A DNA stretch of 64,000 nucleotides from Cucumibacter marinus DSM 18995 (GTDB lineage Bacteria > Pseudomonadota > Alphaproteobacteria > Rhizobiales > Devosiaceae), in contig NZ_KE386978.1 in the NCBI RefSeq assembly GCF_000429865.1, positions 1 to 64,000 of the forward strand, read 5' to 3'. Both the position numbers and the translations under genes were made by a program. Each line of letters begins with the position of its first letter. The first letter of the stretch is position 1. Shown here piece by piece: positions 350 through 20,323 of this stretch. Below the pieces are notes generated by a model, which worked only from the letters and a program-made list of their open reading frames with translations, did no database searches and was not told the DNA's origin.

Positions 350-676
350 ATGGATCTCAGAAAGCAGGTCGGTATCCGCCTCAAGGCCATCCGACAGGAC
401 AAGCAACTCTCCCAGGCCGAACTTGCCGAGCGCATTGACCGCACCGTCGATGCCGTCTCCGCCATCGAGCGCGGCAAGAGCCTGCCCGGTTATGAAACCC
501 TCGAGCGCATGGCCACCGCCCTTGGCGTTCCGGTTACCGAGTTCTTCTCGTTCCAGCAAACCGCCACCTCCCCAAGGCGCGCCCGGCTGATCGCGGAGAT
601 CCACCTCGCTCTTGGCAAGCTCTCCGACAAGGACCTCGCCCGCGCCACCGACATCATTAAAACCCTGGCCGGATAG
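350..676 (+). CDS. XRE-family transcriptional regulator, C-protein-like
   Basis: This 108-residue protein has a Cro/C1-type helix-turn-helix at about residues 5-62. The family signature LSQAELAERI is followed by a recognition-helix stretch with AISAIERGK-like spacing (VSAIERGKSLP) and ALGVPVTEFF at the domain end. The remaining ~45 residues are a short helical tail that probably dimerises. Size and layout resemble controller proteins of restriction-modification and defence loci. The ATG sits just after the second operator, so the protein probably represses or tunes its own promoter. It is transcribed away from the five-gene operon and convergent with the small gene at 859. Whether it also controls the operon promoter, 16 kb away, cannot be told. 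Confidence 0.85.
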   Translation: MDLRKQVGIRLKAIRQDKQLSQAELAERIDRTVDAVSAIERGKSLPGYETLERMATALGVPVTEFFSFQQTATSPRRARLIAEIHLALGKLSDKDLARATDIIKTLAG

Positions 677-1192: not shown

Positions 1193-1957
1193 TCAATTCT
1201 CACCATCGCGAAACACTCGGGCTCGATGCCAAGCCAGATGCTGCTTGTGACTATCCGTCAGAAGTATTGGGGTTTGCCAGCGCAACTCGGCCCGCCCTAA
1301 CTCGCTCAGTGTGGCCGAAAACAGCGGCTGGCCCTCGTCATCGAACGTTACTAGTCCGCGATCAAAGGCAGCGTCCCAGAGTGCCGACAGCAGCAAGCCG
1401 TTGTGCACATCGAGCCGCTCTGCATTAGTCGCGCAGTCCCTCCAAGGGATGATGTGAGAAGCGCGTAGCAGTGCCGGATCCGTGATTCCGGTGAGGGGAC
1501 AGCTGCCTCGCCAATAGTCCATGAGGCCCGCGCGGAAGACCTCCTGGCCGACACGCTGGACGGTCCACCGCTCGGCCTCGGAGTTCTTGGGTAAATCGCG
1601 GGTGCGGTGTTGGAATTCCCGCAGCGGTGCGTCGGGCAGACTTGCCGCCAACTGATAGATGCGCGGCAACACGGCGTAGAGCGCGCCAAGCGTGTCGAAG
1701 ACATAGCGGGCAAGGCCGGGGCCTGGCATTTTAGCCGAAGGCAGGCCTAGCTCCTCGATGACGCCGGCATGATCGAGGGCTAGGTACCATGGCCCCTGCG
1801 ACCCCGCACCGGCCAGATGTATCGTGCCGTGTGCGGTGGTAGAACCAAAGGCGGCCCAACCCGCGTCGGTGTCGAGATTGCGGCGAAAGCCGTGCTGCCA
1901 GGCGGCCTTCTCACATTCCTTGCGGACGACAAAGGACTGGGGTGCCTCGACTATCAT
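1193..1957 (-). CDS. HNH endonuclease, last large gene of the defence operon
   Basis: The chosen ATG at 1957 overlaps the stop of the upstream ATPase gene as ATGA, a sign of translational coupling; a longer frame from 2077 would run far into that gene. The 254-residue product has its nuclease signature near residues 155-200. This is SHIIPWRD followed by HNGLLLSALWDAAFDRGL, which matches the HNH family with an NGLLL core (pfam13391 type). The first His and central Asn are present, while the position often held by the last His is Trp in this copy, which is not rare in this subfamily. The N-terminal ~130 residues are unassigned and may bind a partner or DNA. It probably supplies the DNA-cutting activity of the system. 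Confidence 0.85.
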   Translation of the reverse strand: MIVEAPQSFVVRKECEKAAWQHGFRRNLDTDAGWAAFGSTTAHGTIHLAGAGSQGPWYLALDHAGVIEELGLPSAKMPGPGLARYVFDTLGALYAVLPRIYQLAASLPDAPLREFQHRTRDLPKNSEAERWTVQRVGQEVFRAGLMDYWRGSCPLTGITDPALLRASHIIPWRDCATNAERLDVHNGLLLSALWDAAFDRGLVTFDDEGQPLFSATLSELGRAELRWQTPILLTDSHKQHLAWHRARVFRDGEN

Positions 1958-3924
1958 AGGTCCATCCTGAAGAGGCGCTGTTCCGCCGGCGTCGAACTCA
2001 TTCGCTGCCTTACGTACTGGTCGTTCTGCAATTTCTTCGGTGGAGCCGTTGTCGTTGTAACAATATATTGGAAGCATGCCGATCCAGCTTCATCCTCCCA
2101 ACCCTGGACCAGTTCGAACAGGCGGGCATACAGCGTCCCGTCAAGGTCCGCCTCGCGCGGGCTGTCATGAATGAGAAAGGCCGGTAAATCCGCTTTTTCT
2201 TCGACCGCCAAGTGCAGCGCTGCAAGGTCAAAGGCAACAATCTTCAGAGAGTCGAGCGCGGCCGTCGAAACCTCGCCCCGGCCAGAGAACTGTGCGTCGA
2301 CCTTCAATCCTTTGCCGTCGAGCTTTATCGCACCATCGACACCTTCAGGAAGCCAGGCGGACATGATCCCCCGATACCGGTCTTCCAAGGCCTGGATCGC
2401 CTGCTGTGCACGTTTCCTCCCCTGTTCCAACTGCGCGCGCACGGTTTCCAGATCATCTGTCGTGAGAGATGTCGGTGCCGCAGTAGCTGAGCTCTGCCGA
2501 AGGGTACGCGCGTCATCGAGCAGACGCCTTGCCTGATAGACCCGGTCCTGGATGTTTGCTGCCGCTTGTTGCGCAGCTCGAAGTGCGGCATCGGCGCCCT
2601 TCGCTTGTTCTTCGGCGGTCCGTATTTCCTGATCGATCTGCGTGATGGCGGCCGCTATGCGTTTTGCTTCGGTTTCGGCACCCTCTGCTTCTTGGTCCAG
2701 ATTTGCCGCCTTCCTCTGTTTCTCTGCGATCTCGGCCTTGATGGCGGCGACGTCGCATCGCTCCAGAGAAATCCCGCACCCCTGTGCCAGCACCTGATCT
2801 ATTGGAACTCGGCAGATCGTGCATACCCGGATACGGCCCTGGCTGATATCGATCTCGCCAACGCTTGCTTCGCTGCGGAGATGTTCGGCCTCACGTCGCT
2901 TACGCTCAGCGTCTCTCTCCTTCGTCTGTCGATCTTCAACGTGCGCTGCTCGCTGGGTGTTGAGATCTGCCAAGCGATCAAGGAGCGCACTGACGTCAGG
3001 AGGAGTCGGCAGTTCTGCCCGCATTGCCTCAGCGAGCGCTGTTTCAGCAAGTGCTACGAGACCCTTCTGGTCGAGCGTGTCATCGAGCTCGACATCCTCC
3101 CCCACACCTAGCGCATTGCGAAGGGCACCTAGTTTCTCGGCCCGTCGCTGCTCACCGTACGCTTGTATCTTGCGCTCTTCGTCTGCGGCGTTTGCAAGCT
3201 CCCGTTCGCGCGCGGCGGCCCGCTGCTCTTCCGCGTCGAGCGCGCGCAGGGCGAGACGCACCATGGTCAGTTTCGCGGTTTCGCTCAAAACCTGCGCGCG
3301 CGAGCGAGTCTGCGTCTTTGATGTCCGCCAAGCCAGAATGTCGCCCAAGCGGCACTCCTGATCGCGCGACAACCATGCCCTGAGCACGTCCCATATATGT
3401 TCGTCACCGACCTCTTGGGGCGATCGTCCGTTGAGGGCGGAAAAGAAGGCCCTCGTGATGATTGGATCGAGTGATGCTGCATCGCCTTCCTGACGCCCTC
3501 GTGCTAAGACGTCCTCGATGCTGTCGGCCTGAGCGACAAAACTGCCGCTCCCCAGACCTAGATTGCGCACGGCGATCCAGCAGATTTCATCGACGATGAC
3601 CTCGGCCGCCACCAGTCCATTCGGTAGCTTCGCCATGAGGCGGGTGCCCTGGCTGTCTGTTGCGAAGGCGGGCTCGCCGAGGCAGGCCCTGAGCAAGCGG
3701 CAGAACGTCGTCTTCCCGCTTCCATGCGCCAGTGCCGACTGGCCGCTGCTGGACATGTCGGGTGTCCACACGATGTTCAGACCGGGCTTGAGCGGGATGT
3801 CCCGTTTGAGGGTCTTAGGATCCTCGAACAGGGCCAGACGGCGTACCCACAGGCGTGGTTCGCGGCGCCCGTTCGGAGCGGTGGGCGGCTGAAAGTGAGG
3901 CGCGAACAGGTCAGCCGGTGCCAT
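1954..3924 (-). CDS. SMC/Rad50-like coiled-coil ATPase with zinc-hook-like cysteines
   Basis: The product has 656 residues. A P-loop (LAHGSGKTTF) lies near residues 65-74. Two coiled-coil arms follow at about 230-270 and 325-358, then 390-515. Between the inner arms is a four-cysteine cluster, CTIC at 368-371 plus Cys383 and Cys390. The Walker B/D-loop region is near 583-593 (FLIHDSPREAD). This order of head, coil, Cys centre, coil, head is that of Rad50/SMC-like proteins, where a CxxC hook dimerises through zinc. Here the centre has four cysteines within one chain. The start overlaps the methyltransferase end by 14 bases. The likely role is an ATP-driven DNA clamp or sensor serving the helicases or the HNH nuclease. 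The family is not firmly identified. Confidence 0.75.
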   Translation of the reverse strand: MAPADLFAPHFQPPTAPNGRREPRLWVRRLALFEDPKTLKRDIPLKPGLNIVWTPDMSSSGQSALAHGSGKTTFCRLLRACLGEPAFATDSQGTRLMAKLPNGLVAAEVIVDEICWIAVRNLGLGSGSFVAQADSIEDVLARGRQEGDAASLDPIITRAFFSALNGRSPQEVGDEHIWDVLRAWLSRDQECRLGDILAWRTSKTQTRSRAQVLSETAKLTMVRLALRALDAEEQRAAARERELANAADEERKIQAYGEQRRAEKLGALRNALGVGEDVELDDTLDQKGLVALAETALAEAMRAELPTPPDVSALLDRLADLNTQRAAHVEDRQTKERDAERKRREAEHLRSEASVGEIDISQGRIRVCTICRVPIDQVLAQGCGISLERCDVAAIKAEIAEKQRKAANLDQEAEGAETEAKRIAAAITQIDQEIRTAEEQAKGADAALRAAQQAAANIQDRVYQARRLLDDARTLRQSSATAAPTSLTTDDLETVRAQLEQGRKRAQQAIQALEDRYRGIMSAWLPEGVDGAIKLDGKGLKVDAQFSGRGEVSTAALDSLKIVAFDLAALHLAVEEKADLPAFLIHDSPREADLDGTLYARLFELVQGWEDEAGSACFQYIVTTTTAPPKKLQNDQYVRQRMSSTPAEQRLFRMDL

Positions 3925-6900
3925 GCCCGAACCTCGCCCACACGATATTGTCCTCCTGCGCGACGGCAGCGGTTATTCGATCTTGGCCGAGCCGCCGGAT
4001 CGCTTGCAGCGCGAACGCAGCGCGCTGCGCGTTGGCAGACTCGGCCCTCAATCCGGCCGGATCGAAATGCCGCCCCCTGATCCAGTCTCCATCATCGCGC
4101 TCTTCGAGCTGGCCCGACGAAATGAGCGTTTCGAATGCGGTGCGCCACGCCGCGTTGATCGGCGGTCGCAAGCGGGTAACGCCCTGCGCCGGCCGCGCCT
4201 CCGCGCCGACCAGTCGGATCCAGTGCGCGCGATCCTCATCGGAGAGCAAGGGGGTCAGGAGGGCTGGCTCGGCCAGGCAGGCGACGAGCATGCGTATGCG
4301 CGAGCCATCTTGAGCGGGATCGCTGATCCAGAGCGCGTATTGAGCGGCATAGCGCAGCCGGTCTTGCGGTTGGATCTGTGCCAGCCATCCCCATGCGCCG
4401 TCGCGCAGTCTGGCAAGCACCGGCAGTTCGATGCGCGGTGTCTCCCCCTGGGTCTCCACTTCTGAACCTAGTCCCAGCGCGTCGAAGGTCCCGTCCGCCT
4501 CCATCCGGTCCCAGGCGGAGAGGACGAGGCGGCGGGTGCGGTATTCGCCGTGTTGACGGATTTCCTTTTCCTTGAGGACGCGGAAGGTTTCCGTGGGGTA
4601 GTCGGGGCCCTTCACGTCGGCAGGATCGAGGATGTAGCGCAGTTCGTCGCGGGTCAGGCTGTAGGCGCGGGCGTAGAAGGCGTCGAGCTCGGCGCGAAGG
4701 AGCGCTCGACGGTCCTCGTCCCAGGCGAAGGGCGGGCCGTCATGGCCCAGATCGCGGGCGAAGGGGGCAAGACTGTGCGAGGTGTAGGTGAGTTCCAGCA
4801 CCCTTGGGGTTATGAATCCGCGCCGCGCAGCAGTGTAGAACTCTGGTGGGAGTATTGGTAACTGTTTGAGATATCCAAAGGTTAGGTGAGTTCCGCCAAC
4901 CGATTGCCGAGCTACAAAGTCGAGAGCAAGTGAACAAAGGCAAGCGAGAAAACCGGCGATGGCATCTGGTTCGAGATCCAGAAAGATCAACGGCGAAGTG
5001 TGCCCGACCGCAGACTCCGGAAAGACGGCGGCGATTGTTGTCCTTTCATTCGTAGCGTTCGTGATATCACGCCAACCCATTAGCCAGTCGCGTGTCCAGT
5101 TGCGATCTCTTAGCCGCTTTGTGACCTCAGTCTCGGGCACCCAATACCGGGCGGTGGGCTCGAATGACGCTTTTCGTTTCTCGGACAGCAGCACGTCGCG
5201 TGCGCTTCCGTCTTTGTCATAAGTGGCCCATCGATGATCGAAATGATGGAACATCTTCGCTTCATACAGCGGTGCGAAACGCTGTGGTCCTCGCGGCCCG
5301 GCGTCGTCAAGATTTAGGACGCCTGCACCTGAGCCTTCGACGGATAGAGCGCCTTGCCTTGGTCGCACACCCTCGGCCACCCATGAAGTTCCATCCTTGA
5401 CATAGCCCGCGTCAGACAAGTTGGCGGCGGTGCTGAACCATTCGGAATCCTCCGCCATGTGCCAAATCCGAGAGTGCAAGCTAACGTTCCAAGGGTTGCC
5501 GGTCGGACCCTTGCTATCCTCGATCAGGACCGGAGCCCGAGTGTAAATTTTTGCTGTCAGTTCGGCGTCCCAACGAGATCGGAATACAGGCGCCGTTTTG
5601 GTATTTGGATTGATGTCGGCAATTTGCTCAGGACTAAGCGTGAAGTTTCGCTCCGCTTCCGCCAACTGTGCAGGCTCAGACAGGAAGAAGGCAAAGCGTG
5701 CTGCTGGTTCGTTGCTTCCGATTGTAAGCAAGCAAAACTTCATGCGGCTGTCGACTGCCGGGAATAAACCTGCTCGGTTTTCGAAGTCTACTAAGCTTGA
5801 AAGACGTTTTTCTTCAACAAGATGAGAGAAAAATGGAGCTGTCGTAGCGTCCGTAGCGATACCCGTGGGAACAATCACACCAGCGCGGCCCTCAGGTCCA
5901 GCTAAGTAGGAGAACAGCTCAGCAAACACCTGATATGTGTTCACATCACCCGCACCTGTGAATGGGAAACGGCCGCCATCTTGGCCGTCGACACGAGCGA
6001 AAGTTGAGATTGCGTCAGAGAAGCGTTTCTCTGCCTGAAAAGCATCCCAGAGCGCTCTTTGCGGCGTACCTTCTTCAGCGTCTCTCAGCTCATTAATTGT
6101 TCGTGTTCGAGCAGCTGCGTTAGGTGCAGATGCAATGTCTGCGTCACGCGCTGCGAAGAATTCTTTCTCTTGAAGCTTAATCCGTTCCCAAGGTGGATTT
6201 CCAAGCACCACATCGAAGCCACCGCGGCCCATGACATCGGGAAACTCCAGCGGCCAGTGGAAGGCGTGGGCAGTTCTCGCCGCGTCCACTGCCGCGCCAA
6301 ACAACGGGCCAAAGGGCTGTACGCCGCGCAACCATTCCCACAGCGTGCCCGAGGTCGGCGCCATCTCCGCTCCCCGGCGCGGCAGACCGTCCGGCCCCGC
6401 AAACTGCCCGCCCCGTGTCCTGGCTAACAGGAAGGCGGCTACGTAAAGGTCACAGGCGGCTTCCAGTTGCCACGCTCCGGCGCCTTGCGCTGTGAGTTCC
6501 CGCAGCTTCCCGGCCTTGGCCTCGATCTGCTCCATCGTGTCCTCCGGCATGGCGCGGAGTTCCGCGAACTCGCGTGTCAGGTCGCGGGCGCGGTTGAAGC
6601 CGAAGCCTTGGGCGATACGGTCGCGTTCCTGCCTTTCGCGTTTGTTCTTCTGGACGTAGTGGCGCGCCACGTTCTTGTCGTCACCAGTCAGCGGCTTGTA
6701 GGCGGCATCGGGGATACCATCCTCCAGCACCTTCAGATCGAACACGCCCAGAAGTGCATCGCCACAACGGATCTGCGCGTCGAAGAAGCCAAGCGGCAGG
6801 CCCGGGTCCACCGTCTCGATCCAGAGCGCGACCTTGGTCAGTTCCACCGCCATCGGGTTGCGGTCCACCCCATGCAGGCAGGAGCGCGCGACATCGCGCA

Positions 6901-8476
6901 GCGCATGTCGGAAGTCGGCGAGCGAGGGCGTGCCCTCGGCCCGGATGCGGGCCAGCCGCGTGGCGATGCGGCGGGCGGCGGCTAGCAGGAAGTGCCCGGA
7001 GCCGCAGGCGGGGTCGATGACCGAGAGCTTCAGCAGCGCTGTGGCGGGATCGTCCGCCTCGGCCTCAGTCTTGTCGAGCACGGGATCAAGCGCAGTGTCC
7101 AAGAGCGCCTGCACGAGGCTGTCGGGCGTGTAGTAGGACCCGGTGGTCTTGCGCTGGTTGCCCTTCTGCTCGGCCGCCTCGGAGGCGAAGACCAGCGTCT
7201 TGCCGTCGGCGCCCAGCTGGGGCTGCAGTTCGAGGAGGGACTCGTAGACCGAGCCCAGTTCCTCAGTCTCCATCGCGCGCCAGTTGACAGGGACCATGCC
7301 GGTTTTGTCGGCGAGCCAGGATAGGCGGTAAAGCGCCTCCATGAAGGCGCGGTTGCGCAGGCGGGCGGTTTCGAGATGGGGCAGCCTGTCCTCGGCGAAG
7401 AGGCCGCCGAGCGCCGGGAGGGCGAGCGCCTCCTGCCCGTGGGCGAGCGCGCGGAAGACGATCTTGATGCCCTCGTAGCGGTCGTGGTGCTTGTCCCAGG
7501 TGGCGGCGCGGTAGCACTGCTTGCGCAGCGCCGCGAGGCTATAGCCCTCAGCATAGAGCGCGCGGGCCTCGGCCTGCGACTTCGCCGGATGGAGCAAGTT
7601 CCGGTCCTCGGCAACCATCAGGAAGATCAGCCGGTAGACGAGGCGGAGGAGCTCGTTGAACCAGGTGGTGAGGTTCACCTCGCCGGATTTCATTTTGGCC
7701 GTGAGCTCGGGGTTGGCCTCAAGGAAGCCCGAGCCCAGCACCTTAAGTGCGATCTGCACCTGGTCGGCCAAACGGTCGCGCGCGGCCTCGCCCTCGCGGG
7801 AGCCTGCCTCGCGCCAGCGCTCTAGCGGGCAGTCGGTTGCCGGAGTGTCGGCGGCGCCGAAACGGGACCGGTGGATGAGGAGCCAGAGCGCGGCGAAGGA
7901 CGCGATGTCCTCGGTCGAGAAGATCTGGGCGAGGTCGGCTTCGATAAATGCGGGGCGCGTCAGGGACGCGTTGTCCCGCATGAGGCGCAGGTGGGTTCCG
8001 TTGGTGACGATGCCCCACAGCGCTTCCTCGGAGTCGTTGAGGTAGTCCTGAAGCGCGAAGGCGGGCGAGCGGGAGCGGTCGACGGACAGGGTTGGGCTGC
8101 GGCGGTCCAACGTCTCGCTCGGTGGCACGACGACCAGCGGAACCCTCCCGCTGGCGATCATGGCAAGCGGCGCATCGGCCGGTGTTAGGTCTTCGAAGCC
8201 GAAGGTCTCCTTGAAGAATCCAGCCACGAAGCGACCTGTTGCGTCCTGTGAGGACGCCTCGAGCTTTTCGAAGGCATCGAAGTGGGATTGGCCGACCCGG
8301 AACGCCGTCGAGATTTCCTCGCGGATCGTAAGACCCTTGCGAACGGCGTAATCCTCCGGCGCCTGTTCCGGGGCATCCCGCTGGTCGATCCTCGCGATCA
8401 TTGCGGGGGCGATGAGATTGCCCTCGAGGCTGAGCGAGGGCCATGCGGACATGTCGGAGATCGGTTTGCGCGCCAT
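3911..8476 (-). CDS. Large N6-adenine DNA methyltransferase (Eco57I/DrmMI/PglX-like)
   Basis: This 1,521-residue enzyme has SAM-binding motif I (DPACGSGHF) near residues 488-496 and the catalytic motif IV (NPPW) near 760-763, with GSYYTP just before the SAM domain, as in Eco57I-type enzymes. The N-terminal ~440 residues are helical and lack an obvious PD-(D/E)XK motif. The part after NPPW should hold the target-recognition domain. I prefer the ATG at 8476, two bases after the upstream stop and preceded by GGGAGAGG, over a TTG at 8482. Known: similar enzymes mark self DNA in DISARM (drmMI) and BREX (pglX). The middle of the gene is markedly poorer in GC than its flanks. Confidence 0.9.
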   Translation of the reverse strand: MARKPISDMSAWPSLSLEGNLIAPAMIARIDQRDAPEQAPEDYAVRKGLTIREEISTAFRVGQSHFDAFEKLEASSQDATGRFVAGFFKETFGFEDLTPADAPLAMIASGRVPLVVVPPSETLDRRSPTLSVDRSRSPAFALQDYLNDSEEALWGIVTNGTHLRLMRDNASLTRPAFIEADLAQIFSTEDIASFAALWLLIHRSRFGAADTPATDCPLERWREAGSREGEAARDRLADQVQIALKVLGSGFLEANPELTAKMKSGEVNLTTWFNELLRLVYRLIFLMVAEDRNLLHPAKSQAEARALYAEGYSLAALRKQCYRAATWDKHHDRYEGIKIVFRALAHGQEALALPALGGLFAEDRLPHLETARLRNRAFMEALYRLSWLADKTGMVPVNWRAMETEELGSVYESLLELQPQLGADGKTLVFASEAAEQKGNQRKTTGSYYTPDSLVQALLDTALDPVLDKTEAEADDPATALLKLSVIDPACGSGHFLLAAARRIATRLARIRAEGTPSLADFRHALRDVARSCLHGVDRNPMAVELTKVALWIETVDPGLPLGFFDAQIRCGDALLGVFDLKVLEDGIPDAAYKPLTGDDKNVARHYVQKNKRERQERDRIAQGFGFNRARDLTREFAELRAMPEDTMEQIEAKAGKLRELTAQGAGAWQLEAACDLYVAAFLLARTRGGQFAGPDGLPRRGAEMAPTSGTLWEWLRGVQPFGPLFGAAVDAARTAHAFHWPLEFPDVMGRGGFDVVLGNPPWERIKLQEKEFFAARDADIASAPNAAARTRTINELRDAEEGTPQRALWDAFQAEKRFSDAISTFARVDGQDGGRFPFTGAGDVNTYQVFAELFSYLAGPEGRAGVIVPTGIATDATTAPFFSHLVEEKRLSSLVDFENRAGLFPAVDSRMKFCLLTIGSNEPAARFAFFLSEPAQLAEAERNFTLSPEQIADINPNTKTAPVFRSRWDAELTAKIYTRAPVLIEDSKGPTGNPWNVSLHSRIWHMAEDSEWFSTAANLSDAGYVKDGTSWVAEGVRPRQGALSVEGSGAGVLNLDDAGPRGPQRFAPLYEAKMFHHFDHRWATYDKDGSARDVLLSEKRKASFEPTARYWVPETEVTKRLRDRNWTRDWLMGWRDITNATNERTTIAAVFPESAVGHTSPLIFLDLEPDAIAGFLACLCSLALDFVARQSVGGTHLTFGYLKQLPILPPEFYTAARRGFITPRVLELTYTSHSLAPFARDLGHDGPPFAWDEDRRALLRAELDAFYARAYSLTRDELRYILDPADVKGPDYPTETFRVLKEKEIRQHGEYRTRRLVLSAWDRMEADGTFDALGLGSEVETQGETPRIELPVLARLRDGAWGWLAQIQPQDRLRYAAQYALWISDPAQDGSRIRMLVACLAEPALLTPLLSDEDRAHWIRLVGAEARPAQGVTRLRPPINAAWRTAFETLISSGQLEERDDGDWIRGRHFDPAGLRAESANAQRAAFALQAIRRLGQDRITAAVAQEDNIVWARFGHGTG

Positions 8477-8478
8477 GA

Positions 8479-11241
8479 TCAAACCTCTCCCGGCATGAGG
8501 ACGAACAAGCCGATCACGTCGGGCGGAAGGACCGCTTCGACGCTAACGCGGGAGATGGAACCGGCCGCGGCACGCAGGCGAGCATGATCTTCGACGAGTT
8601 CCGCTGCCCGCTGATTGACGAAGTCCGCCAAAGGTCCAGCGAGCAGGTCCGGCAGGTCCGCCTTGGCAGCATTGATCATCCGATCTCGTGCGATCTCCGC
8701 GAGGTTTGCAGTGGCGGGCGCGCTGAGCATTTCACGCACGTCTTCGCCGGTCACCGCGACGCCTTTACCCTGGAGGGCAACCAGCGCCGCTTCCTCGGCC
8801 AGAAGCAGCCGCTCCTTTCTGGCGTGGATCGTGAGCTTGTACCGGGCGCGCAGGAGGGCGACGCGAGTCATCGCCGAGACCGCTGTTGTCGGCCATGCAC
8901 CGACGCGGCCAATGCCGAGGTCCGGAAGCGCCTCCTGATCCAGCGAAGCCTCGACAAGGCTCTCAGCGAGCGATGCCGTCAACGGATGGGTTCTCGTTAG
9001 GAGCGACGTCCCAGCGGGAGCAGGCTCTGCGGTGGCGAGCCTGACAGATTTCTCGAGGCCGCGCTGCTCAAGCTTCTCCTTGAGCGTCTGCTGGAGCGCG
9101 TGAACGTGAGCGACGAAGATGTTCCGCTTTTTTTCAAGTGGCACACCGAACCGCGACATCGCGCGCTCAACGAAGAGCTTCGTATCCTCAGGCGAGCCGA
9201 GCAGGCTTCTGACCTTGTCCCACTCCGGCGCCACATCAGCGGGCTTCATCGCGTTCTGGGCGAACCTGGCACGCGATTTCTTCTCGTTCTCGCTGGCATC
9301 GCGCCAACGCGCTTCCATGACCTTCGTGCCATCCTCGAGACGAAGGTCGAGAGTCAGCTGCTTGTGCCCACCACGGCGGAGCATCATTGCGGACATCAGG
9401 GCGTCTGTGACCGGCCCGCGCTCGTCGGGCAGCGGAACCGTCACCCCGGTTGCCTTCCTGATTTCCTCGGCTTTCCGCAGGATTACATCGAGGACGGCAC
9501 CATCGATAGCGCTGTCCGGCGAGAACATCATGATCGAGCGAACCAGCTCGGCCGGCTGGCCGAAGCGGTCCACCCGCCCTTCACGCTGTTGATGCCGGGT
9601 CGGATTCCACGAGAGATCGTAGTGTACGACCGTGTCGAAAAGCTGCTGCAGGTTGATGCCTTCCGAGAGGCAGTCGGTCGCCACCAGGATCCTTTGCGCA
9701 CCTTCTTCCGCATCTTCCAGCGCCATCTCGGCAACACGATCGCGGCGTTCGTCCGGGGTCAGCTCACCAGTTACCGATTCTATGATCAGCTTTGGGAAAG
9801 CCTTCCGCAGGCCTGACTTCACGTGTTCGGCGGTGGCCAAATACCGGCAGAAGACGACCGGGTTGGCCCCACTTTTGATCAACGGCTTGAGCGCACCGAC
9901 GAGGGCGTCGAGCTTTGGATCTTTCGCTTCAACCAGATCGCCAGCCTGATCGATGAGAGCACGGAGTGCGGGGTCATCCGAGAAAGCAGTGCTGGGTTCG
10001 ATGTCCACGGCATCTTCGTCGTCGCCGTCTTCGTCATAGATCTGCGGTTCGAGACGGTCTGCTTCGTTGGCGGCACGATTTCTCAGCGCACTCAACGCTG
10101 CGGCGGGCGAGGAACCAACGCAGCGCATGAGAGCTAGGGTGCCCCAGAACGCGAGGCGCTGATCCCTCTTTTGCTCTCCCGCTTTCGAGACCACCTCGAG
10201 GCAATAGTCCAGAACGGCTTCCTGGAACGCCAAGTGCTCGGGCGAGAGCCGGTAGGCGTGCTCTGTGGTTTCGTGTTTCGGGAATGATCGGTCCTCGTGC
10301 CAATCGCCCTCGACGAGGTCCACGCGACGCCGCTGGACAAAGTGCCTCGCAAGGCGCTCTCGGTATCTGGCACTGTCGAAGTCCAGCGTGGCGAAGTCCT
10401 GGTCGATCAGTGAGAGCAGTCGTGCAAATGCTTCCTCGTCGCCCGAATGCGGTGTGGCCGTGAGCATGATGAGCCGGCGATCCGCGTCCTTCGCGAGTCC
10501 CTGTAGCAACTCGAAACGCTGCTGTTTGCCTTTGTGGGTGCCCACACAAGCGTGGGCTTCATCGACGATCACGAAGTCCGGACAGGCCCGCGCGAACCCC
10601 TCCCTTCGCTTCTCGGCCTTGATGTAATCGAGGCTAACAACCGTGTAGGGATAAGCGTCAAAGAGGGTCTGCGCGAGCGGCAGATTTCTCTCGAGGCGTG
10701 CCGCGGTACCGGAAGTCACCGCGACAGAGTCGATTCCGAACCGATCCTTGAGCTCGATGATCCACTGATCCACAATGTGGGGTGGGCAGAGAACCGAGAA
10801 GGCATCGACTTCGCCGCGATCCATGAACTCGCGCAGGATCAAGCCCGCTTCGATGGTCTTGCCGATACCGACATCGTCCGCGATCAGCATGCGAGGCACT
10901 TGGAGCCTGAGTGCCATGAGCAGTGGCACAAGCTGATATGTGCGAGGTTCGAATGCGAGCTGCGCGGCCGACCGGAACGGGCCGGCGCCGCGGCGAAGTG
11001 TGAGCCGCAGTGCGTCCGCCAAGAGCGCAGCTTTGGCTTGGACGGTAGTGCGCGCATCTTCTGGGAGATCGAACCGCGCTGCTTCGACCGATGCGATTTC
11101 CAGTGTGGGATCCAGGACAACAATGTCGTTTTCGTTTCCCGACAGCGGCCGAAGCGCAAGAATCCCTGCGCTTGGCGCTGGGAGAGCCACCCATTCGCGG
11201 CCTCGGGCCCGAACCAAATCGCCAGGTGAGAAACTCAGCAC
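8479..11241 (-). CDS. SNF2-family helicase, DrmD-like
   Basis: The 920-residue protein carries all helicase landmarks: Walker A DDVGIGKT at 122-129, DEAH at 227-230, TATPHSG near 260, and in the C-terminal RecA-like lobe CLSEGINLQQ and REGRVDRFGQ (motif VI). Such proteins act as ATP-driven DNA translocases; a SNF2 protein of this type is the DrmD hallmark of class 1 DISARM. The start is GTG, placed 5 bases after the stop of the preceding helicase gene, and no better start exists nearby. The stop is 2 bases before the methyltransferase ATG. The C-terminal ~250 residues (helical, Ala/Glu/Arg rich) are unassigned. Confidence 0.9.
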   Translation of the reverse strand: MLSFSPGDLVRARGREWVALPAPSAGILALRPLSGNENDIVVLDPTLEIASVEAARFDLPEDARTTVQAKAALLADALRLTLRRGAGPFRSAAQLAFEPRTYQLVPLLMALRLQVPRMLIADDVGIGKTIEAGLILREFMDRGEVDAFSVLCPPHIVDQWIIELKDRFGIDSVAVTSGTAARLERNLPLAQTLFDAYPYTVVSLDYIKAEKRREGFARACPDFVIVDEAHACVGTHKGKQQRFELLQGLAKDADRRLIMLTATPHSGDEEAFARLLSLIDQDFATLDFDSARYRERLARHFVQRRRVDLVEGDWHEDRSFPKHETTEHAYRLSPEHLAFQEAVLDYCLEVVSKAGEQKRDQRLAFWGTLALMRCVGSSPAAALSALRNRAANEADRLEPQIYDEDGDDEDAVDIEPSTAFSDDPALRALIDQAGDLVEAKDPKLDALVGALKPLIKSGANPVVFCRYLATAEHVKSGLRKAFPKLIIESVTGELTPDERRDRVAEMALEDAEEGAQRILVATDCLSEGINLQQLFDTVVHYDLSWNPTRHQQREGRVDRFGQPAELVRSIMMFSPDSAIDGAVLDVILRKAEEIRKATGVTVPLPDERGPVTDALMSAMMLRRGGHKQLTLDLRLEDGTKVMEARWRDASENEKKSRARFAQNAMKPADVAPEWDKVRSLLGSPEDTKLFVERAMSRFGVPLEKKRNIFVAHVHALQQTLKEKLEQRGLEKSVRLATAEPAPAGTSLLTRTHPLTASLAESLVEASLDQEALPDLGIGRVGAWPTTAVSAMTRVALLRARYKLTIHARKERLLLAEEAALVALQGKGVAVTGEDVREMLSAPATANLAEIARDRMINAAKADLPDLLAGPLADFVNQRAAELVEDHARLRAAAGSISRVSVEAVLPPDVIGLFVLMPGEV

Positions 11242-11246
11242 AACGA

Positions 11247-14200
11247 TTACCCTTTCAATAGATCAAGTAGCTGTTCGGGGACGCCGGCGTCTGCCGATGC
11301 TGGAAGAGCGACAAGTTCCCAGCCTTTGTTGGCTGCTTCATTGGCCATGTCTGCGGAAACCGCCTCGCTTGTGGCGGCGACAAAGTGCCCGCGCCATACG
11401 AATTCGGCTTCCGCACCGGCAAAGCTGAGGCCAATGGTGTCGACCTGCGGGAGACCAGCAGCCTCAAAGGCCTTCAGCCACGGAGACGACGCGCCGTCTG
11501 GCGCGGCCCGCCGCTCAAGCACCGTGCGACCGCGCGCAAGGTCAACCAACAGCTGGGTAACCTCCTCGCTGCCGCAGTCGATCTGCTCATGGTCCGGCTG
11601 GTTGAAGTACGACAACAGGCAGCGGTAGCACCCTCTGACGCAGGCATCGTCGACCTTCTCGGTCAGCAGGCTAGCGTCTCCGCTTGCGACCGCCGCGTCG
11701 ATGTTTTCGAAGTGCATAAGCCCGAGTGCTGTCCGAGCGACCTCGCTTATGGCTTCGGGATTATCCATCAGGCGCGTAAGAACACCGGCCCCTCCCTCCG
11801 TGGCTTCGTAGGCAAGGATGGCGCGGCGGTTGTCGCGAGCTGGAAGTGGCTCACTTAGAATTTCGCCTTCTTCAAGCTGGTAGACGACCTCGATTCCCCG
11901 CAAGAGCGCATGCTGAACGGTGGTTATCGTGCTTGGGTCAAAGTTTTCCGGCTTCTTGAAGCGGAACAGAAGCGCGTTCTTGCGGTCCCTGACGATCGGC
12001 ACAATCCGCACTGGCTTGACTACATCGGGCGGAGCGTCGGTCTCTGCATCCTCGTCGTCTGATTTTGCCCAGTAGCCTGTGCGGGGATCGATATTGAAGC
12101 CGAAGACTGTCTGGTCCTTTCGGCGCTTCAGGCCCTTGTTCAGACGACTAATTTCGGCACTGTTGGCGTATTGCAATGCGAGTAGAGAAGTCTCTCCGCA
12201 TCTGAATTCCGCGTTCGTGACCTGTAACTGGTGGTCCTTCGTCGGCCACGAAAATACGGTCTGGATGTCGAAGCCCTGCCGAACGCGCTCTTCATCGTTC
12301 GCGGTGATGCGCTCAGTGGGTGCGGCTTCCACATTGTCGATGCGGAGCGTGCGCTTGATGGGCACCTCTCCGGCCATGTGTGCGTCGCAGCCATGGCAGC
12401 GCTCTACCTCTCCTTCGTGGCAGGCTCCGCAGTTGGCGCAAATGTAGATGTCCTTGGTCGCGAGCTCCGATCCGTCGCCCTCGCGAACCTCGGGAGGGAG
12501 CTTTGCCTTCATCACCCGGTAGGCGCGACCTTCGTGGTAGATCAGACTGCGCGGTCCAAACTCCGATATCGCAAGGAAGCGCGCGCGAGAGAGGAACGAG
12601 CCAGTCTTTCCCTCGCCCGGCACGAAGGCGTAGAGCGGCAGGCGCGGGAAGTTGTAGCCGGGCAAGAAGCCCTCGGTCGCGAGGTAGCGGTACGAATAGA
12701 AGTCCGATCCGTTCGATGCCTTTCCTTGTTCGAGGATCGCAATCTGGTCGCTGGCCTGCATCTGTGCGGCCTTGATTTTGCGACGGTCGCCGGCCGAGAG
12801 ACCTGTTATCTCTGAGCGGGCGTTGGCTTCGGCCAATTGAGTACGAGCAGAGTTGTAAAGTTCGCGCCAACGGTCGAACGCTCGATTGAACTCCTTGGGA
12901 GCGTTCATCGCCACGTGAAGCACGAACTCCTCCGGGTCGTCCATCCAGACGGGAAGTGCCCCTTGATCAGCGGCCAAAATCTGATCGAGCACCCGCTGCA
13001 TTGGTCCATGCGCACGAGAGACGAGATCGGCTTTCGAAATGCTGTCAAGGATCACTTCTTTAAGCGGATAGCGATCGCCACCAAGGTCTAGGATGTCTGG
13101 GATATCCGGTGAGAGAGCCAGGCGACTCTCCGCGAGCCAGACAGCATGGAGGTGGGAGCGGACCAGTTCTTCGTTCGTGATATCCAGCGCAGGCGGGCGC
13201 ACGACACCCGCCACCATGTCATTGCGGCGCTCGAAGAAGTACTGGTCGTGTGGAGAACCCGATGCGCAGTACGTCACCACAACCGCTGCCTGGCCGGACC
13301 GGCCCGAGCGGCCGGCGCGCTGCGCGTAGTTGGCGGGAGTCGGAGGGACGTTCCTCAAGTAGACCGCATTGAGCGCCGAGATGTCGACCCCAAGCTCCAT
13401 CGTCGGCGAGCAGAACAGCGCCGGGAGGAACTGGTCAGATTCCCCGGTGGCCTTGATTTCGGTTCGATGCTCCGAGGTGTTGAGGTTTTCGAGGTCGTCG
13501 TCTTCGAACCTGAACCGCCACTCGCGCCATTCACGCTGCCTTTGGGAAACCTGCGCGGTGTGCTCGCGCCCCTCCAGCCCCCAATAGGCGCTATGACCCG
13601 ATGCCAGATCGTCCGCAATCGATGCGTACAGATCGTGGAAATATCGGTTTCCTCGTCTACTCTCGTCGGAGAGCGCGGGCCCGGGGACAAGGCGGACGGC
13701 AGAGGGCGTCAGCCGCCAGCCTACCAGATCAGCGTCGAGCTCGACCGGGACAATTAAACCCTCATCGGCGAATAGCTCGAGCAAGCGCGAGAAGAACTCG
13801 AGGTAATCGTCCCGCCCGAGCTTCGTGCCCAGCACGCTCTTTTTGTTGATGAGCCGCGCAATGCGGGAGTTGTGACCGGCGCGAAGGAGTGTCTGTTCCT
13901 CACGAAGGCCCACGGCGTTCTTGCCTGGTGCGCGCAAAAGCAGAGCCGACCGCCCGCGCGGGTTCTCCTTGGCATCTATCGCCCACGGAGCGCGCAACAG
14001 CGATCGTGATTTCTGCGCGACGCCGTCCAGGACAGTCAGGTCCAAGGCTTCCGTGTTGACAGCAAGGCCTTCGAGCATTGCGCCCAGCACGGTCTCTAGC
14101 AGGATGGCTCTCTGCTTTTCGGATTGATCGCCGAGCTCGGGCAAGACTGTCATCAGCCTTTCTCGGTCTGATGCCATATCTGCGACGCCGACGAACCTAA

Positions 14201-16427
14201 CATCGAGAAGCTTCAGAACGGAGAGGCTGGGGTTGGTGTAGCGCCAACCCCTGCGGAGATCAGTCCACACTCGATGAGCGAGAACCTTTGCGAGTGCGCG
14301 CTGGGCGTCTTCCCGAATGACGGCGCCAGCCGATGGATCGAGCATCCAGTGGGCGCGCGCGTCTTTGTTTGCAGACGTGAAGCCAAGCGCCTTGACGACG
14401 CTCAGACCGAACTCATCTTCCGTCAGGCCCTCGGGCCCTGCTGCAATTATCGCCCGCAGAATGGCCCCACGGAGAAGGCTCACGAACAGAAAATCGTTGA
14501 AGTGGCCGGACTGAAGCGCCGCGTCTTGCCGATTGTCCGTGAACCCCAGCAGCTTGCGCTTCGTTTTCGGAACGCCGCTCGTCGGCTTGTTCATCCACTC
14601 GAGAGCGCTGGAAACGAGAAGCGTCGTGGCGGAGCTCCGACCTTCCCCGGACAGTCCGGCTAGCTTGCTCCGCTCGCGCATCCCCTGATTGGGCTCGTCC
14701 TTGCAGCAGAGGCAGAATGCGAACTTTCCAGGGATGAACCAGAATTCTCGGCCACCAGCGCCATGCCGGCCGTCTGGCGTCACGACATAGGAGATGGGCG
14801 CGCGCTTCTTGCGATAGGATCGAAGCCGCTCGATGCCGTTGCGCTCTTCCAGCCAGCTCTCGGGATAACCGTTCAGATCACCGTCGAATGCGAAGTCGGG
14901 ATCATTTGCCGTAGCCGGACAGAGATATCCTGCCACATCATCATCGTCTTCGGATTCCAGCGGTGTATCGTCGATATTGCGGGGGACAAACCTGATGTGG
15001 CCGTCATCCTCGTTCTTGGTGACAACGTGGTATTCGTGTCCGCAGTTCCTGCAGAAGCGTGTTGGGTAAAGCCGGTTACCCGGAGCATCGGGATCCTCTA
15101 GCTGACCCTCGAACAGAACGGTGCGCGGCTTGTCTGTAAGCGTGGTGAAGATCTCACCAGCGCCGGAAATAAACCTGTGCAACTTGAATGCGAGGAACGC
15201 TCCGTCCCCCGTCCCACCGCGATGATCTTCGGGAAGGCTTACCAGCGTCAGGAAGCCTTCGAGCTGCGTCTGACACTGCTCTGCGTCGACCCCACTGTCG
15301 TCGGCCAATCGTTTGACGGCGTCCTCGAAGGGTATGGGCTTCTTTCGTTTCAGCTCCAGCCCGTCATCGAGGCCGAGCGCAAGCTCCGCCCACACCGCGA
15401 GCGGGTGCTTCCTGAGCTGCTCGTCGTCCAAGCTCGTTGGAAGAGGTTGTCGCACCACATCAGCCAGTGTGGCGGTCGCTTGCGCAAGGGTGATACTGTC
15501 GTCAGTAGACCGCTGCAGCGACTCATCTATTACGGCATCCGGGCCGATCTCGGAGCCGAAGAGCCTGGTCGCAACTTTGGCCACAGCGACCGCTCGGCTT
15601 TCCTCGGTGCCTTCGGAGGCCATCGTCGCCGATGTGCCTATGCAGATCGGAGCTTTGTCCGGGGAGCACCGATCACGCAGGCGCCGAACGAGCACCGCCA
15701 CATCCGCGCCTTGGCGCCCTCTGTAGGTGTGCAGTTCGTCGAGGATGATGAATTCAAGACCGGTTGCGTTCTTGACCACCTGAGCGTCGAGGTCGTCTTG
15801 GCGGGTCAGCAGAAGCTCCGCCATCATGTAGTTCGTGAGCAGGATATCTGGCGGATTGGCCGCGATCCGCTGACGTTCCTCTTGGCTCTCTTGCCCCGTG
15901 TAGCGTTTGACAACTGGCCTAAGGGCGTCAGGAAGCCCTGACTGTCCAATGAATCTGTCGATTTCCTTCATCTGGCTGTTTGCCAGAGCATTCATCGGAT
16001 AGACGATAATCGCGCGGGTTGTACGAGGCTTACCAGCACGTAGGGCCCGAATGATGGCGTCGACAATTGGCACGAAGAAGCACAACGACTTGCCGGAGCC
16101 GGTTCCTGTCGTGACGACAAAGCTCTTTCCGGATTTCGCCTTGGCAATCGACTCTGCCTGGTGTCGATGAAATCGGAGGGGTTTCTCGCCGAACCGGAAA
16201 ACTTGTCCGGTTCCTTCGTCCAAGTCACCTGAAGCGATCAGGTCATCCACGGTGGGACCCGAAAGATATCTAGGATTCAAGGATAGCAGGGCATCGGGCC
16301 AGAACCGACCGGCATCATACTGTGCATCAATCGCCGCCCGAAGATCCCCCGCACGGATGGCGCTGAAAGAACGCGAGAAACGTTCATAGGATTCTACAAT
16401 ATGATGATCAAAACTGAATGCTTTCAT
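11247..16427 (-). CDS. Giant DEAH-box helicase with C-terminal DUF1998 region
   Basis: The 1,726-residue product has a Walker A TGTGSGKS near residue 108 and a DELH box near 231. GTSATM and, in the second lobe, a QRAGRSGR motif VI follow. Cysteine pairs suggest zinc sites (CRNCGH, CLCC, CANCGACHEGEVERC). The C-terminal DUF1998 region has YEATEGGAGVL and a CVRGCYRCLLSYF cluster near 1600, followed by ~120 unassigned residues. DUF1998 helicases occur in MrfA/YprA repair enzymes, Druantia DruE and, as separate proteins, DISARM DrmA plus DrmB. The length fits a DrmA-DrmB fusion or a DruE relative. The ATG at 16427 is favoured by GGAAAA 6 bases upstream; an earlier ATG at 16451 lacks a good site. 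It is the first gene of the operon. Confidence 0.9.
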   Translation of the reverse strand: MKAFSFDHHIVESYERFSRSFSAIRAGDLRAAIDAQYDAGRFWPDALLSLNPRYLSGPTVDDLIASGDLDEGTGQVFRFGEKPLRFHRHQAESIAKAKSGKSFVVTTGTGSGKSLCFFVPIVDAIIRALRAGKPRTTRAIIVYPMNALANSQMKEIDRFIGQSGLPDALRPVVKRYTGQESQEERQRIAANPPDILLTNYMMAELLLTRQDDLDAQVVKNATGLEFIILDELHTYRGRQGADVAVLVRRLRDRCSPDKAPICIGTSATMASEGTEESRAVAVAKVATRLFGSEIGPDAVIDESLQRSTDDSITLAQATATLADVVRQPLPTSLDDEQLRKHPLAVWAELALGLDDGLELKRKKPIPFEDAVKRLADDSGVDAEQCQTQLEGFLTLVSLPEDHRGGTGDGAFLAFKLHRFISGAGEIFTTLTDKPRTVLFEGQLEDPDAPGNRLYPTRFCRNCGHEYHVVTKNEDDGHIRFVPRNIDDTPLESEDDDDVAGYLCPATANDPDFAFDGDLNGYPESWLEERNGIERLRSYRKKRAPISYVVTPDGRHGAGGREFWFIPGKFAFCLCCKDEPNQGMRERSKLAGLSGEGRSSATTLLVSSALEWMNKPTSGVPKTKRKLLGFTDNRQDAALQSGHFNDFLFVSLLRGAILRAIIAAGPEGLTEDEFGLSVVKALGFTSANKDARAHWMLDPSAGAVIREDAQRALAKVLAHRVWTDLRRGWRYTNPSLSVLKLLDVRFVGVADMASDRERLMTVLPELGDQSEKQRAILLETVLGAMLEGLAVNTEALDLTVLDGVAQKSRSLLRAPWAIDAKENPRGRSALLLRAPGKNAVGLREEQTLLRAGHNSRIARLINKKSVLGTKLGRDDYLEFFSRLLELFADEGLIVPVELDADLVGWRLTPSAVRLVPGPALSDESRRGNRYFHDLYASIADDLASGHSAYWGLEGREHTAQVSQRQREWREWRFRFEDDDLENLNTSEHRTEIKATGESDQFLPALFCSPTMELGVDISALNAVYLRNVPPTPANYAQRAGRSGRSGQAAVVVTYCASGSPHDQYFFERRNDMVAGVVRPPALDITNEELVRSHLHAVWLAESRLALSPDIPDILDLGGDRYPLKEVILDSISKADLVSRAHGPMQRVLDQILAADQGALPVWMDDPEEFVLHVAMNAPKEFNRAFDRWRELYNSARTQLAEANARSEITGLSAGDRRKIKAAQMQASDQIAILEQGKASNGSDFYSYRYLATEGFLPGYNFPRLPLYAFVPGEGKTGSFLSRARFLAISEFGPRSLIYHEGRAYRVMKAKLPPEVREGDGSELATKDIYICANCGACHEGEVERCHGCDAHMAGEVPIKRTLRIDNVEAAPTERITANDEERVRQGFDIQTVFSWPTKDHQLQVTNAEFRCGETSLLALQYANSAEISRLNKGLKRRKDQTVFGFNIDPRTGYWAKSDDEDAETDAPPDVVKPVRIVPIVRDRKNALLFRFKKPENFDPSTITTVQHALLRGIEVVYQLEEGEILSEPLPARDNRRAILAYEATEGGAGVLTRLMDNPEAISEVARTALGLMHFENIDAAVASGDASLLTEKVDDACVRGCYRCLLSYFNQPDHEQIDCGSEEVTQLLVDLARGRTVLERRAAPDGASSPWLKAFEAAGLPQVDTIGLSFAGAEAEFVWRGHFVAATSEAVSADMANEAANKGWELVALPASADAGVPEQLLDLLKG

Positions 16428-16700: not shown

Positions 16701-16774
16701 TTGAACCGCGCAGATCGGAAAGAGCGGAACGGCACTCGACTTCCCCTGCGAAGCAAGCATTGGTGGGTGTGCGC

Positions 16775-16839
16775 CCGGTTCCGGGCCTTGGTCAGTAGCA
16801 GGCCGGCAATGGTGCCGGGTGTTGACCAAGGAGAACCGG
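16775..16839 (+). promoter_or_regulatory. Nested inverted repeat covering the DUF3489 ribosome-binding site
   Basis: Three perfect stems nest inside one another. CCGGTTC (16775-16781) pairs with GAACCGG (16833-16839); CCTTGGTCA (16786-16794) pairs with TGACCAAGG (16823-16831); CCGGCA (16803-16808) pairs with TGCCGG (16813-16818) around an ATGG loop. The structure ends two bases before the ATG at 16842, and the Shine-Dalgarno AGGAG (16829-16833) lies in its right arm. As RNA it would mask translation start of the recombinase operon. As DNA it could be an operator or a recombination site. Confidence 0.6.
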
Positions 16840-16841
16840 AC

Positions 16842-17390
16842 ATGGACAGCAACAGCAGCGACCTCACGGAAAGCGGGCGCAAGGATCGCAAGGGTGCCTC
16901 ACACGCAATTTCAGCAGAAAACACATCGAGTGGATCAGCGAAGCTGACCAGGGCGTCCAAGTCCGCGATGATCGTTGAAGCACTTCAGTCACCCGGTGGT
17001 ACATCCATTGCGAACTTGTGCGCGAGCACAGGTTGGCAGAGCCATTCGGTGCGGGCGGCCCTGACCGGATTGAAAAAGAAAGGTCACGTGATCATCCGCA
17101 CGCGGGTTGGGGATCAAAGCATCTATGCGATCTCTCCCACTTCGGTCGCAGCAAGTAATGTGCCTGCGCCCGCCTCTGGCAGCTCCGCTGAACCTACGGC
17201 CGACGAGGAGGCTGCAGGCTCCATCACGGACGTTGCTTCGAATGCATCGGACCCGACGACGAAGACAAGGGCGATCGGTCGCCGGTCCTCTTCAAAAACG
17301 GCGAAGTCCAAGGGGCCCGATGCCAAAGCCCCCGAGGCCTCCCGCAAACGCTCGGCGCGCTCCGCCGCAAAGACCCGGGGCAAGAAGTGA
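16842..17390 (+). CDS. DUF3489-type winged-helix protein, first gene of integration module
   Basis: The protein has 182 residues. Residues ~40-105 form a likely winged helix (MIVEALQSPGGTSIANLC, then RAALTGLKKKGHVI and YAI), the pattern of DUF3489 proteins. The last ~75 residues are a low-complexity basic tail rich in Ala, Ser, Lys and Arg. The ATG at 16842 is preceded by AGGAG, and an upstream in-frame start at 16701 is not supported by a ribosome site. Its last bases overlap the next gene as GTGA. In alphaproteobacterial elements this protein regularly travels with DUF2924 and a serine recombinase. A DNA-binding accessory or regulatory role is inferred. Confidence 0.75.
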   Translation: MDSNSSDLTESGRKDRKGASHAISAENTSSGSAKLTRASKSAMIVEALQSPGGTSIANLCASTGWQSHSVRAALTGLKKKGHVIIRTRVGDQSIYAISPTSVAASNVPAPASGSSAEPTADEEAAGSITDVASNASDPTTKTRAIGRRSSSKTAKSKGPDAKAPEASRKRSARSAAKTRGKK

Positions 17391-20224: not shown

Positions 20225-20266
20225 AAACGCGTTTTGAGCGGGTATCCCCGCCGCGCGACGGGCTGG

Positions 20267-20295: not shown

Positions 20296-20323
20296 CACTC
20301 GCCAATTGAGGGAAAACCAATGC

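Follow-up and report, generated by a model that had tools for sequence, protein, structure and literature searches.

The beginning of contig NZ_KE386978.1 of Cucumibacter marinus DSM 18995 raises the question to which kind of system an operon of five genes belongs that encodes a YprA-family helicase, an SNF2 helicase, an N6-adenine DNA methyltransferase, an SMC/Rad50-like ATPase and an HNH endonuclease. The stretch analysed here (the window, 64,000 nucleotides) lies at the very start of its contig in a genome of 3.71 Mb, and all five genes are located on the minus strand. The original prediction had described the operon as a DISARM-related system in which the ATPase and the HNH protein replace the PLD nuclease. 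The coordinates and Pfam domains confirmed that the five genes are real and correctly placed, and the junctions read from the sequence (in gene order a 5-base gap, a 2-base gap, a 14-base overlap and a 4-base ATGA overlap) agree with the predicted gaps of 2-5 and overlaps of 4-14 bases. The classification has to be changed. The operon is most likely a variant of ARMADA Type I, a restriction-like system with a presumed anti-phage role. Moreover, we consider it probable, with some reservation, that this variant carries a portable LmuB-type sensor docked through a tail on a host enzyme, and that cutting has passed from a Vsr domain to the HNH protein.

ARMADA was described by Bell et al. in 2025 as a YprA-family helicase nearest to Druantia combined with a BrxHII/RapA-like helicase and a PglX-like methyltransferase, and in Type I the genes usually stand in this order (PMC12458937). 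The same order, YprA, BrxHII/RapA-like and PglX-like, is found in the window. Its giant helicase carries DEAD and MZB in a single chain of 1,726 residues; MZB is the domain also called DUF1998 (PMC12458937). The prediction that the DrmA and DrmB activities sit in one chain is therefore borne out. The DEAH motif ascribed to this helicase stands in the SNF2 protein, and the Walker B motif of the giant helicase itself reads DELH. Among the PADLOC models the helicase is matched best by DruE of Druantia (4.7e-80; 268 bits compared with 55.5 bits for DrmA). The SNF2 protein is matched by the NCBIfam model of DrmD at 4.8e-82, which is under the cut-off of that model, and also by BrxH models. The methyltransferase is matched by DrmMI (PADLOC, 6.3e-77) and less well by PglX models. 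In these two proteins the proposed relation to DISARM holds, whereas membership does not: class 1 DISARM shares the DrmD-like helicase and the DrmMI-like methyltransferase with the window, but the operon has no separate DrmA and DrmB genes, its helicase is nearer to DruE, and Pfam found no PLD domain, as in DrmC, in any of the five operon proteins. In set and order the predicted first three genes are those of ARMADA Type I and not of DISARM.

Other known systems were compared as well. Druantia shares the DruE-type helicase with the window, but its remaining genes are replaced here by the SNF2 helicase and the methyltransferase. The PADLOC model PDLC02853, named DpdE, covers the SNF2 protein over its full length (1.3e-200, 667 bits). 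A Dpd system was rejected, as no second full-length Dpd match occurred among the best 25 models listed per protein. ARMADA loci may therefore be mislabelled as Dpd fragments. An Hma system was likewise rejected, since the SNF2 protein has an HmaA match (5.1e-49) with its best stretch confined to residues 76-402. The Type I helicase has been described as carrying BrxA-like, zinc-binding and MarR-like insertions and a C-terminal Vsr nuclease that is predicted to be active and is not stated as required (PMC12458937). The window helicase also ends in a Vsr-type domain, but its catalytic motif is degenerate. ArmD, the GajB-like helicase with a RelE-like domain of Type II, was absent from the five proteins and four window neighbours, the contig beginning 1.2 kb past the HNH gene. 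One Type II system has been reported to need all four genes and to protect without abortive infection (PMC12458937). The parent kind is thus already known. The LmuB-family ATPase, the methyltransferase tail and the HNH protein described below are not mentioned in the main text of PMC12458937, which contains neither SMC nor Lamassu and has a lone HNH in its reference list. No named type with the exact five-gene set was found among the PADLOC models (used without the system rules of PADLOC) or in the literature, for which few subscription journals were covered. With the same coverage of journals, the literature searches did not yield a variant with a dead Vsr domain and an HNH gene, nor a portable cassette of tail and ATPase.

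Relatives were collected in several scans. At class level, the SNF2 protein was found at E 1e-60 in 7 of 385 genomes (own included) and the ATPase at E 1e-20 in 2. A contig scan with an alignment of seven SNF2 proteins returned 511 relatives. The best 80 of these, six further loci and the window make up the 87 loci compared here, or 85 after de-duplication. In most counts a locus qualifies when it either shows the gene or has sufficient sequence downstream, a rule that favours presence; two counts were repeated by the length of downstream sequence alone (for HNH at least 4.5 kb after the methyltransferase). L064, which shares its contig with L013, and L030, which is identical to L029, were dropped from the counts of the 33/33 and 28/31 type and kept in those of the 34/34 type. 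L029 is a Hyphomonas and L030 a Thauera metagenome-assembled genome, and their helicases and SNF2 proteins are identical over the tree columns, which may reflect a recent transfer or a binning error. The ATPase was seen in 34 and the HNH gene in 60 of the 87 loci. All five genes occur together in 27 of the 85 de-duplicated loci, window included, with contig ends hiding part of the rest, so that the predicted set does recur. Most of the 87 loci have the order YprA, SNF2 and methyltransferase; the helicase stands last in L014 and L016, and extra genes lie in between, for example, in L084, L091 and L096. The slot between methyltransferase and HNH is either empty or holds the ATPase and/or other genes (GmrSD, HD, DUF932, M78-peptidase-like, PD-(D/E)XK, UvrD-like and unknown proteins).

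If the operon were a DISARM-like system, its ATPase and HNH protein would form a Septu-like unit that replaces the PLD nuclease DrmC. The two genes are adjacent in the window and in many relatives, which fits such a unit, as do the matches of the SNF2 protein and the methyltransferase to the DrmD and DrmMI models. However, the two genes are not inherited together. Among 66 countable, de-duplicated loci, 28 of 31 that have the ATPase also have HNH, compared with 29 of 35 that lack it (Fisher p 0.48), and restriction to loci with at least 4.5 kb past the methyltransferase gave 25 of 28 versus 23 of 29. Two Burkholderiaceae plasmids carry ARMADA with the ATPase and an intact Vsr motif and lack HNH. 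The presence of the two genes is therefore independent, and their reading as a pair is largely refuted. Sequence identities, correlated over 276 pairs of 24 loci, point in the same direction. With the core genes HNH reaches r 0.90-0.94 and the ATPase only r 0.51-0.54, and the correlation between ATPase and HNH falls from 0.56 to a partial value of 0.23. Considering also that the helicase is DruE-like rather than DrmA-like and consists of a single chain, we give very little credence to a DISARM-like system with such a unit.

The partner to which the ATPase is strictly coupled is the C-terminal tail of the methyltransferase. Only where the ATPase is present does the methyltransferase run about 150-200 residues past its core; in loci without the ATPase it ends at most 35 residues past it. 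The METHYLTRANSFERASE tail was found in 34 of 34 loci with the ATPase compared with 0 of 36 without (33/33 versus 0/35 after removal of duplicates), and the count by sequence length alone gave 31/31 versus 0/35. On a tree of YprA and SNF2 (FastTree, 63 scored rows) the ATPase state changes 18 times, and the tail follows it in 17 of 17 independent pairs (sign test p 1.5e-5). In L019 and L020, whose helicases are 99% identical, tail and ATPase occur in L020 only, the locus of Paracoccus denitrificans DSM 413, which has all five genes. If the reading favoured below is right, the two loci offer a natural pair from before and after the change.

The same correlations show how far this coupling departs from the rest of the operon. 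Tail and ATPase correlate with r 0.95 (partial 0.94 given YprA and SNF2), whereas the tail correlates with its own protein at r 0.56 for the N-terminal part, 0.38 for the middle and 0.05 for residues 1000-1310. The latter region, just ahead of the tail, is almost uncorrelated with the ATPase (r 0.07) and with the core genes (about 0). HNH, YprA, SNF2 and methyltransferase residues 1-600 show mutual values of 0.90-0.98. The operon is therefore a mosaic of three parts: the core with HNH, a freely exchanged recognition region, and the tail with the ATPase. A comparison of the window with L017 from Tropicimonas isoalkanivorans follows this pattern at the DNA level: between 16.1 kb and 6.8 kb each of the 32 bins has an identity of 0.86-0.97, the remaining methyltransferase and the ATPase have 0.44-0.69, and HNH has 0.66-0.70. 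Two further loci, L150 and L151 (9686-14002), have methyltransferases whose similarity to the family covers model positions 9-768 and resumes only at about 1317, in the tail; their recognition region is unrecognisable and the tail is kept.

In our study we also compared the Vsr-type domain of the helicase with the occurrence of HNH. The window helicase ends with AEFVWRGHFVAATSE where intact relatives have DFxY...DGPHH, and the motif is intact in 20 of 86 aligned helicases. On the helicase tree (86 rows) HNH is present in 55 of 57 countable rows with a degenerate Vsr motif versus 4 of 18 with an intact one (first sample: 53/54 versus 4/12); the HNH state of 11 rows was entered by hand (L097, L099, L102-L105, L150, L151, L164-L166) and L101 was left uncounted. 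The root of this tree is approximate because the chosen outgroup does not form one side of any branch. The rows nearest to it are Vsr-intact and, as far as they can be counted, lack HNH; a clade of eight Vsr-intact rows has HNH in 4; and the window lies within the large Vsr-degenerate clade. HNH presence thus tracks Vsr decay in what is essentially one nested event. HNH is missing from the Vsr-degenerate rows L095 and L105, and in L105 an IS21 element follows the methyltransferase. In three of the 14 intact rows without HNH (L014, L016, L104) the helicase is the final gene and is followed by little sequence; in two others (L102, L150) mobile elements occupy the slot. A protein resembling reverse transcriptases follows the ATPase in L087 (19927-22797, RVT_1) and in L090 (20024-22792, same cluster), both of them Vsr-intact loci in which no HNH was seen.

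The structural model of the HNH protein is confident (predicted local distance difference test, pLDDT, 95.5). Its C-terminal half matches VcaM4I (6yex) at E 5.1e-36, with Z 17.1 and a root-mean-square deviation (rmsd) of 5.6 over 136 residues, and TagI (6ghs) with Z 9.2 over 103 residues. VcaM4I and TagI are modification-dependent HNH endonucleases (PMC7897488, PMC6212794) and share the C-terminal nuclease domain with the window protein. In contrast to them, the N-terminal half gave no EVE or SRA domain among the matches listed and instead weakly resembles YjbR (Z 5.5, rmsd 4.0, 98 residues). We infer that HNH is the working nuclease of the operon. If so, the clade in which some members hold both domains shows how a separate nuclease may replace a fused one.

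The ATPase itself resembles LmuB of Lamassu, which is its best PADLOC match (3.8e-16). LmuB is a Rad50-like protein of about 650 residues, often with a zinc hook, and likely a sensor (PMC10586767). The ATPase of the window is of the same size, and the zinc hook proposed for it is a real CxxC motif at the hinge, kept in 25 of 33 aligned members, window included; a subtype of 8 lacks it. A profile of 11 LmuB proteins from fetched loci matched the ATPase over 588 columns at E 3.5e-22 (6.1e-34 under other options), compared with 116 coiled-coil columns at E 4.1e-06 for a control of six chromosomal-type SMC proteins, the sole comparison set besides LmuB. With the ATP-binding ends alone, LmuB gave 1.6e-8 and 4.9e-5, and the chromosomal type 2.6e-4 and 0.05. 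Against LmuB subgroups 1-4 the values were 5e-15, 1e-15, 1.7e-10 and 1e-5, the first two on a par with those between LmuB subgroups (9.5e-14, 7.9e-15, 3.3e-7). Judged by these profiles, the ATPase is closer to LmuB than to chromosomal SMC proteins. Every one of the 33 aligned ATPases has serine or cysteine behind the Walker B aspartate (HDSPR/HDCPR; window residues 586-591) in place of the usual glutamate, which recalls the change from glutamate to glutamine reported for LmuB (PMC10586767). ATP hydrolysis may be slow. The same genome encodes a second LmuB-type ATPase on contig C14 (L141:3974-8759, minus strand; 815 residues, PADLOC LmuB 5.5e-44) behind two genes of 193 and 588 residues in Lamassu-like order. 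PADLOC names neither of these LmuC or LmuA, and the larger protein weakly matches PDC-S65.

A small gene stands immediately ahead of LmuB in 11 of 14 fetched LmuB loci and was called LmuC from its position and size alone; in the window the methyltransferase tail occupies this place. The first Foldseek match of the tail model (pLDDT 83.4) was LmuC of 9ny5, with 9uxh and 9hqu in the top 50, at non-significant E-values for the LmuC chains of 0.39, 2.2 and 2.9. With VIA-align the three LmuC chains ranked 2-4 of 743 (rmsd 4.3-5.2, 113-125 residues, model 73-217), but their Z of 4.7-4.9 is tied with Orc1 winged helices (5.0), and according to the tool a Z below 8 can stem from a shared arrangement alone. 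An LmuC-like nature of the tail is thus plausible on the structural model. Lamassu, ABC-3C and DdmABC share with the window the Rad50-like ATPase and may also share the domain directly upstream of it. The window differs from Lamassu in that the gene directly upstream of the ATPase is the methyltransferase and no LmuA effector was found there, that the putative LmuC-like part is fused to the methyltransferase, and that the ATPase stands inside a restriction-like operon.

These resemblances would also suit an ATPase that is a separate, Lamassu-like hitch-hiker which kills the cell by abortive infection when ARMADA fails, the tail being a remnant of a fused LmuC. Both the relation to LmuB and the position of the tail, at the site of the small middle gene of Lamassu, are expected from it, and GmrSD, HD, UvrD-like and reverse transcriptase genes occupy the same slot in other loci. 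However, no effector gene lies between methyltransferase and ATPase in the window. Besides, the fusion is kept in all 33 loci and recurs on a Type III restriction subunit, which is unexpected for a free-standing module. We therefore place the hitch-hiker on the unlikely side.

The recurrence on a Type III system came from searches that started with the ATPase alone. Among 398 genomes of the phylum, 9 had a match at E 1e-15, own included; of the nine places outside the window, ARMADA operons account for seven, and the other two are L172, a remnant, and L168, where the ATPase stands behind a Mod-Res pair of Type III. Ten plasmid records had a match: seven at ARMADA loci, L152, and two partial matches in Priestia, one of which (L153) is a DUF2326 protein in another setting. 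L152, on a Paracoccus versutus plasmid (13950-16737), is a truncated operon: ATPase and HNH remain, the tail is reduced to its last piece, and no helicase turned up in the 14 kb upstream. On L174, a contig of a viral collection, the ATPase stands behind a Type III system, and the Res subunit of that system carries the tail after its RE_endonuc domain (RE_endonuc 911-1021, tail 1042-1204). This tail matched at E 1.7e-35 in a two-sequence search and at 5.5e-28 among the frames of that contig. In the reverse search of 72,556 plasmids it found four records, all of them methyltransferases at ARMADA loci. The tail match of L168 is no more than suggestive: with two profiles 0 of 2,000 shuffles reached the real score, and with two subtype profiles 65 and 149 did. 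For the Type III case blastn against a phage collection gave no match, the L174 ATPase found only L174 itself among viral contigs, and a further scan of 60 genomes gave two matches, both already found.

The position of the tail on Res speaks for restriction, and against modification, as the process on which the ATPase acts. It thereby bears on another explanation, in which tail and ATPase regulate modification: the SMC arm would position or silence the methyltransferase, for example, in replication, and HNH and the helicases would restrict alone. The docking point in the window is indeed the methyltransferase, and the 29 loci with HNH and without the ATPase presumably restrict anyway. But the Type III tail is borne by the restriction subunit and not by Mod, and regulation of modification seems to us distinctly improbable.

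The reading that we favour, a portable LmuB-type sensor in an ARMADA Type I variant, would work as follows. The methyltransferase would mark host DNA at a site that its exchangeable recognition region determines, and the two helicases would engage and travel on unmarked or abnormal DNA. Cutting would once have been done by the Vsr domain fused to the YprA helicase and, because this domain has decayed, would now be done by the separate HNH protein. The LmuB-family ATPase would be an optional addition that senses DNA ends or unusual structures, and the tail, in the role of LmuC, the middle component of Lamassu, would hold it on the complex. Tail and ATPase would make up a plug-in cassette whose two parts come, go and are exchanged together and which can also sit on a Type III restriction subunit. 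A wider form of this proposal is tentative, and we put it forward as somewhat less probable than not: LmuB ATPases could be portable sensor cassettes in unrelated restriction systems (at least on the ARMADA methyltransferase and Type III Res), in which an LmuC-like docking domain fused to a host enzyme together with the ATPase allows cutting only upon a further signal, for instance DNA ends or replication structures, with the handover from Vsr to HNH occurring in this ARMADA lineage.

Several points, besides the structural scores of the tail given above, weigh against the favoured reading. The main sample consists of the best 80 of 511 relatives and is skewed to near kin. HNH occurs in 29 loci without the ATPase, and the ATPase is correlated to an intermediate degree with the core genes. 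Contiguity could contribute to the joint inheritance of tail and ATPase, and in L152 the ATPase has a mere fragment of the tail upstream. Vsr decay amounts to one or two events on the trees and the Vsr/HNH test had one independent pair; the association is therefore essentially a single event, and pair tests decide nothing. The match of the ATPase extends over no more than 93 columns with LmuB subgroup 3 and 77 with subgroup 4. A phmmer search of the PDB with the ATPase gave no match, and with its profile the LmuB chains came up at E 3e-4, mixed with unrelated coiled coils that in part scored higher. Sequence and profile tests of the tail against LmuC gave no match, although the LmuC groups named by position also fail with each other. 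Finally, L174 is the only strong Type III case, L168 being weak.

If the reading is true, a transplantable SMC sensor can upgrade restriction-like defence systems, and the methylation state therefore need not be the sole trigger of cutting. Moreover, a docking domain would be defined, and ARMADA and Lamassu would be linked by a common part. Restriction-like systems that couple an OLD-type ABC ATPase with a nuclease have been reported earlier (cited in PMC12839542), so the theme of an ABC ATPase in restriction may have precedents.

Table 1. Features of the operon in the window
Feature	Position	Strand	Evidence
YprA-family (DruE/ARMADA-like) helicase, C-terminal MZB/DUF1998, 1,726 residues, first gene of the operon	11247..16427	-	Pfam DEAD 6.5e-26, MZB 5.5e-08; PADLOC DruE1 4.7e-80
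Helicase motifs GTGSGKS at 108 and DELH at 228	in 11247..16427	-	sequence
Degenerate C-terminal Vsr-type nuclease domain of the helicase	11250..11594	-	alignments of 74 and 86 helicases
SNF2/RapA-like helicase (BrxHII/DrmD-like), 920 residues	8479..11241	-	Pfam SNF2-rel_dom, Helicase_C
PglX/DrmMI-like N6-adenine DNA methyltransferase, 1,521 residues from ATG 8476	3911..8476	-	Pfam Eco57I, N6_Mtase; PADLOC DrmMI 6.3e-77
Methyltransferase motifs DPACGSGHF and NPPW	in 3911..8476	-	sequence
Hyper-variable methyltransferase part, residues about 600-1310, presumed target recognition domain	4553..6685	-	identity to L017 falls from 0.86-0.97 to 0.5-0.69
Methyltransferase C-terminal tail from about residue 1326, predicted helical/winged-helix	3914..4507	-	found only with the ATPase; model pLDDT 83.4
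LmuB-family SMC/Rad50-like ATPase, 656 residues, Walker A HGSGKT, Walker B HDSPRE, DUF2326 C-terminus	1954..3924	-	Pfam, PADLOC, profile-profile
CxxC zinc-hook motif (CTIC), middle of the coiled coil of the ATPase	2812..2823	-	sequence, alignment
HNH endonuclease, 254 residues, C-terminal nuclease domain VcaM4I-like, N-terminal domain weakly YjbR-like	1193..1957	-	Pfam HNH_2; model pLDDT 95.5

The HNH start had been put at 2077. It is most likely 1957, at the ATGA overlap, because most HNH orthologues have 250-270 residues. Past the HNH end of the operon a small helix-turn-helix regulator is encoded on the opposite strand (350-676, plus strand). On the other side the operon is adjoined by DUF3489, DUF2924 and a large serine recombinase (16701-19719, plus strand, and 20150-20477), near tRNA-Gln and tRNA-Pro, which suggests the border of an integrated element.

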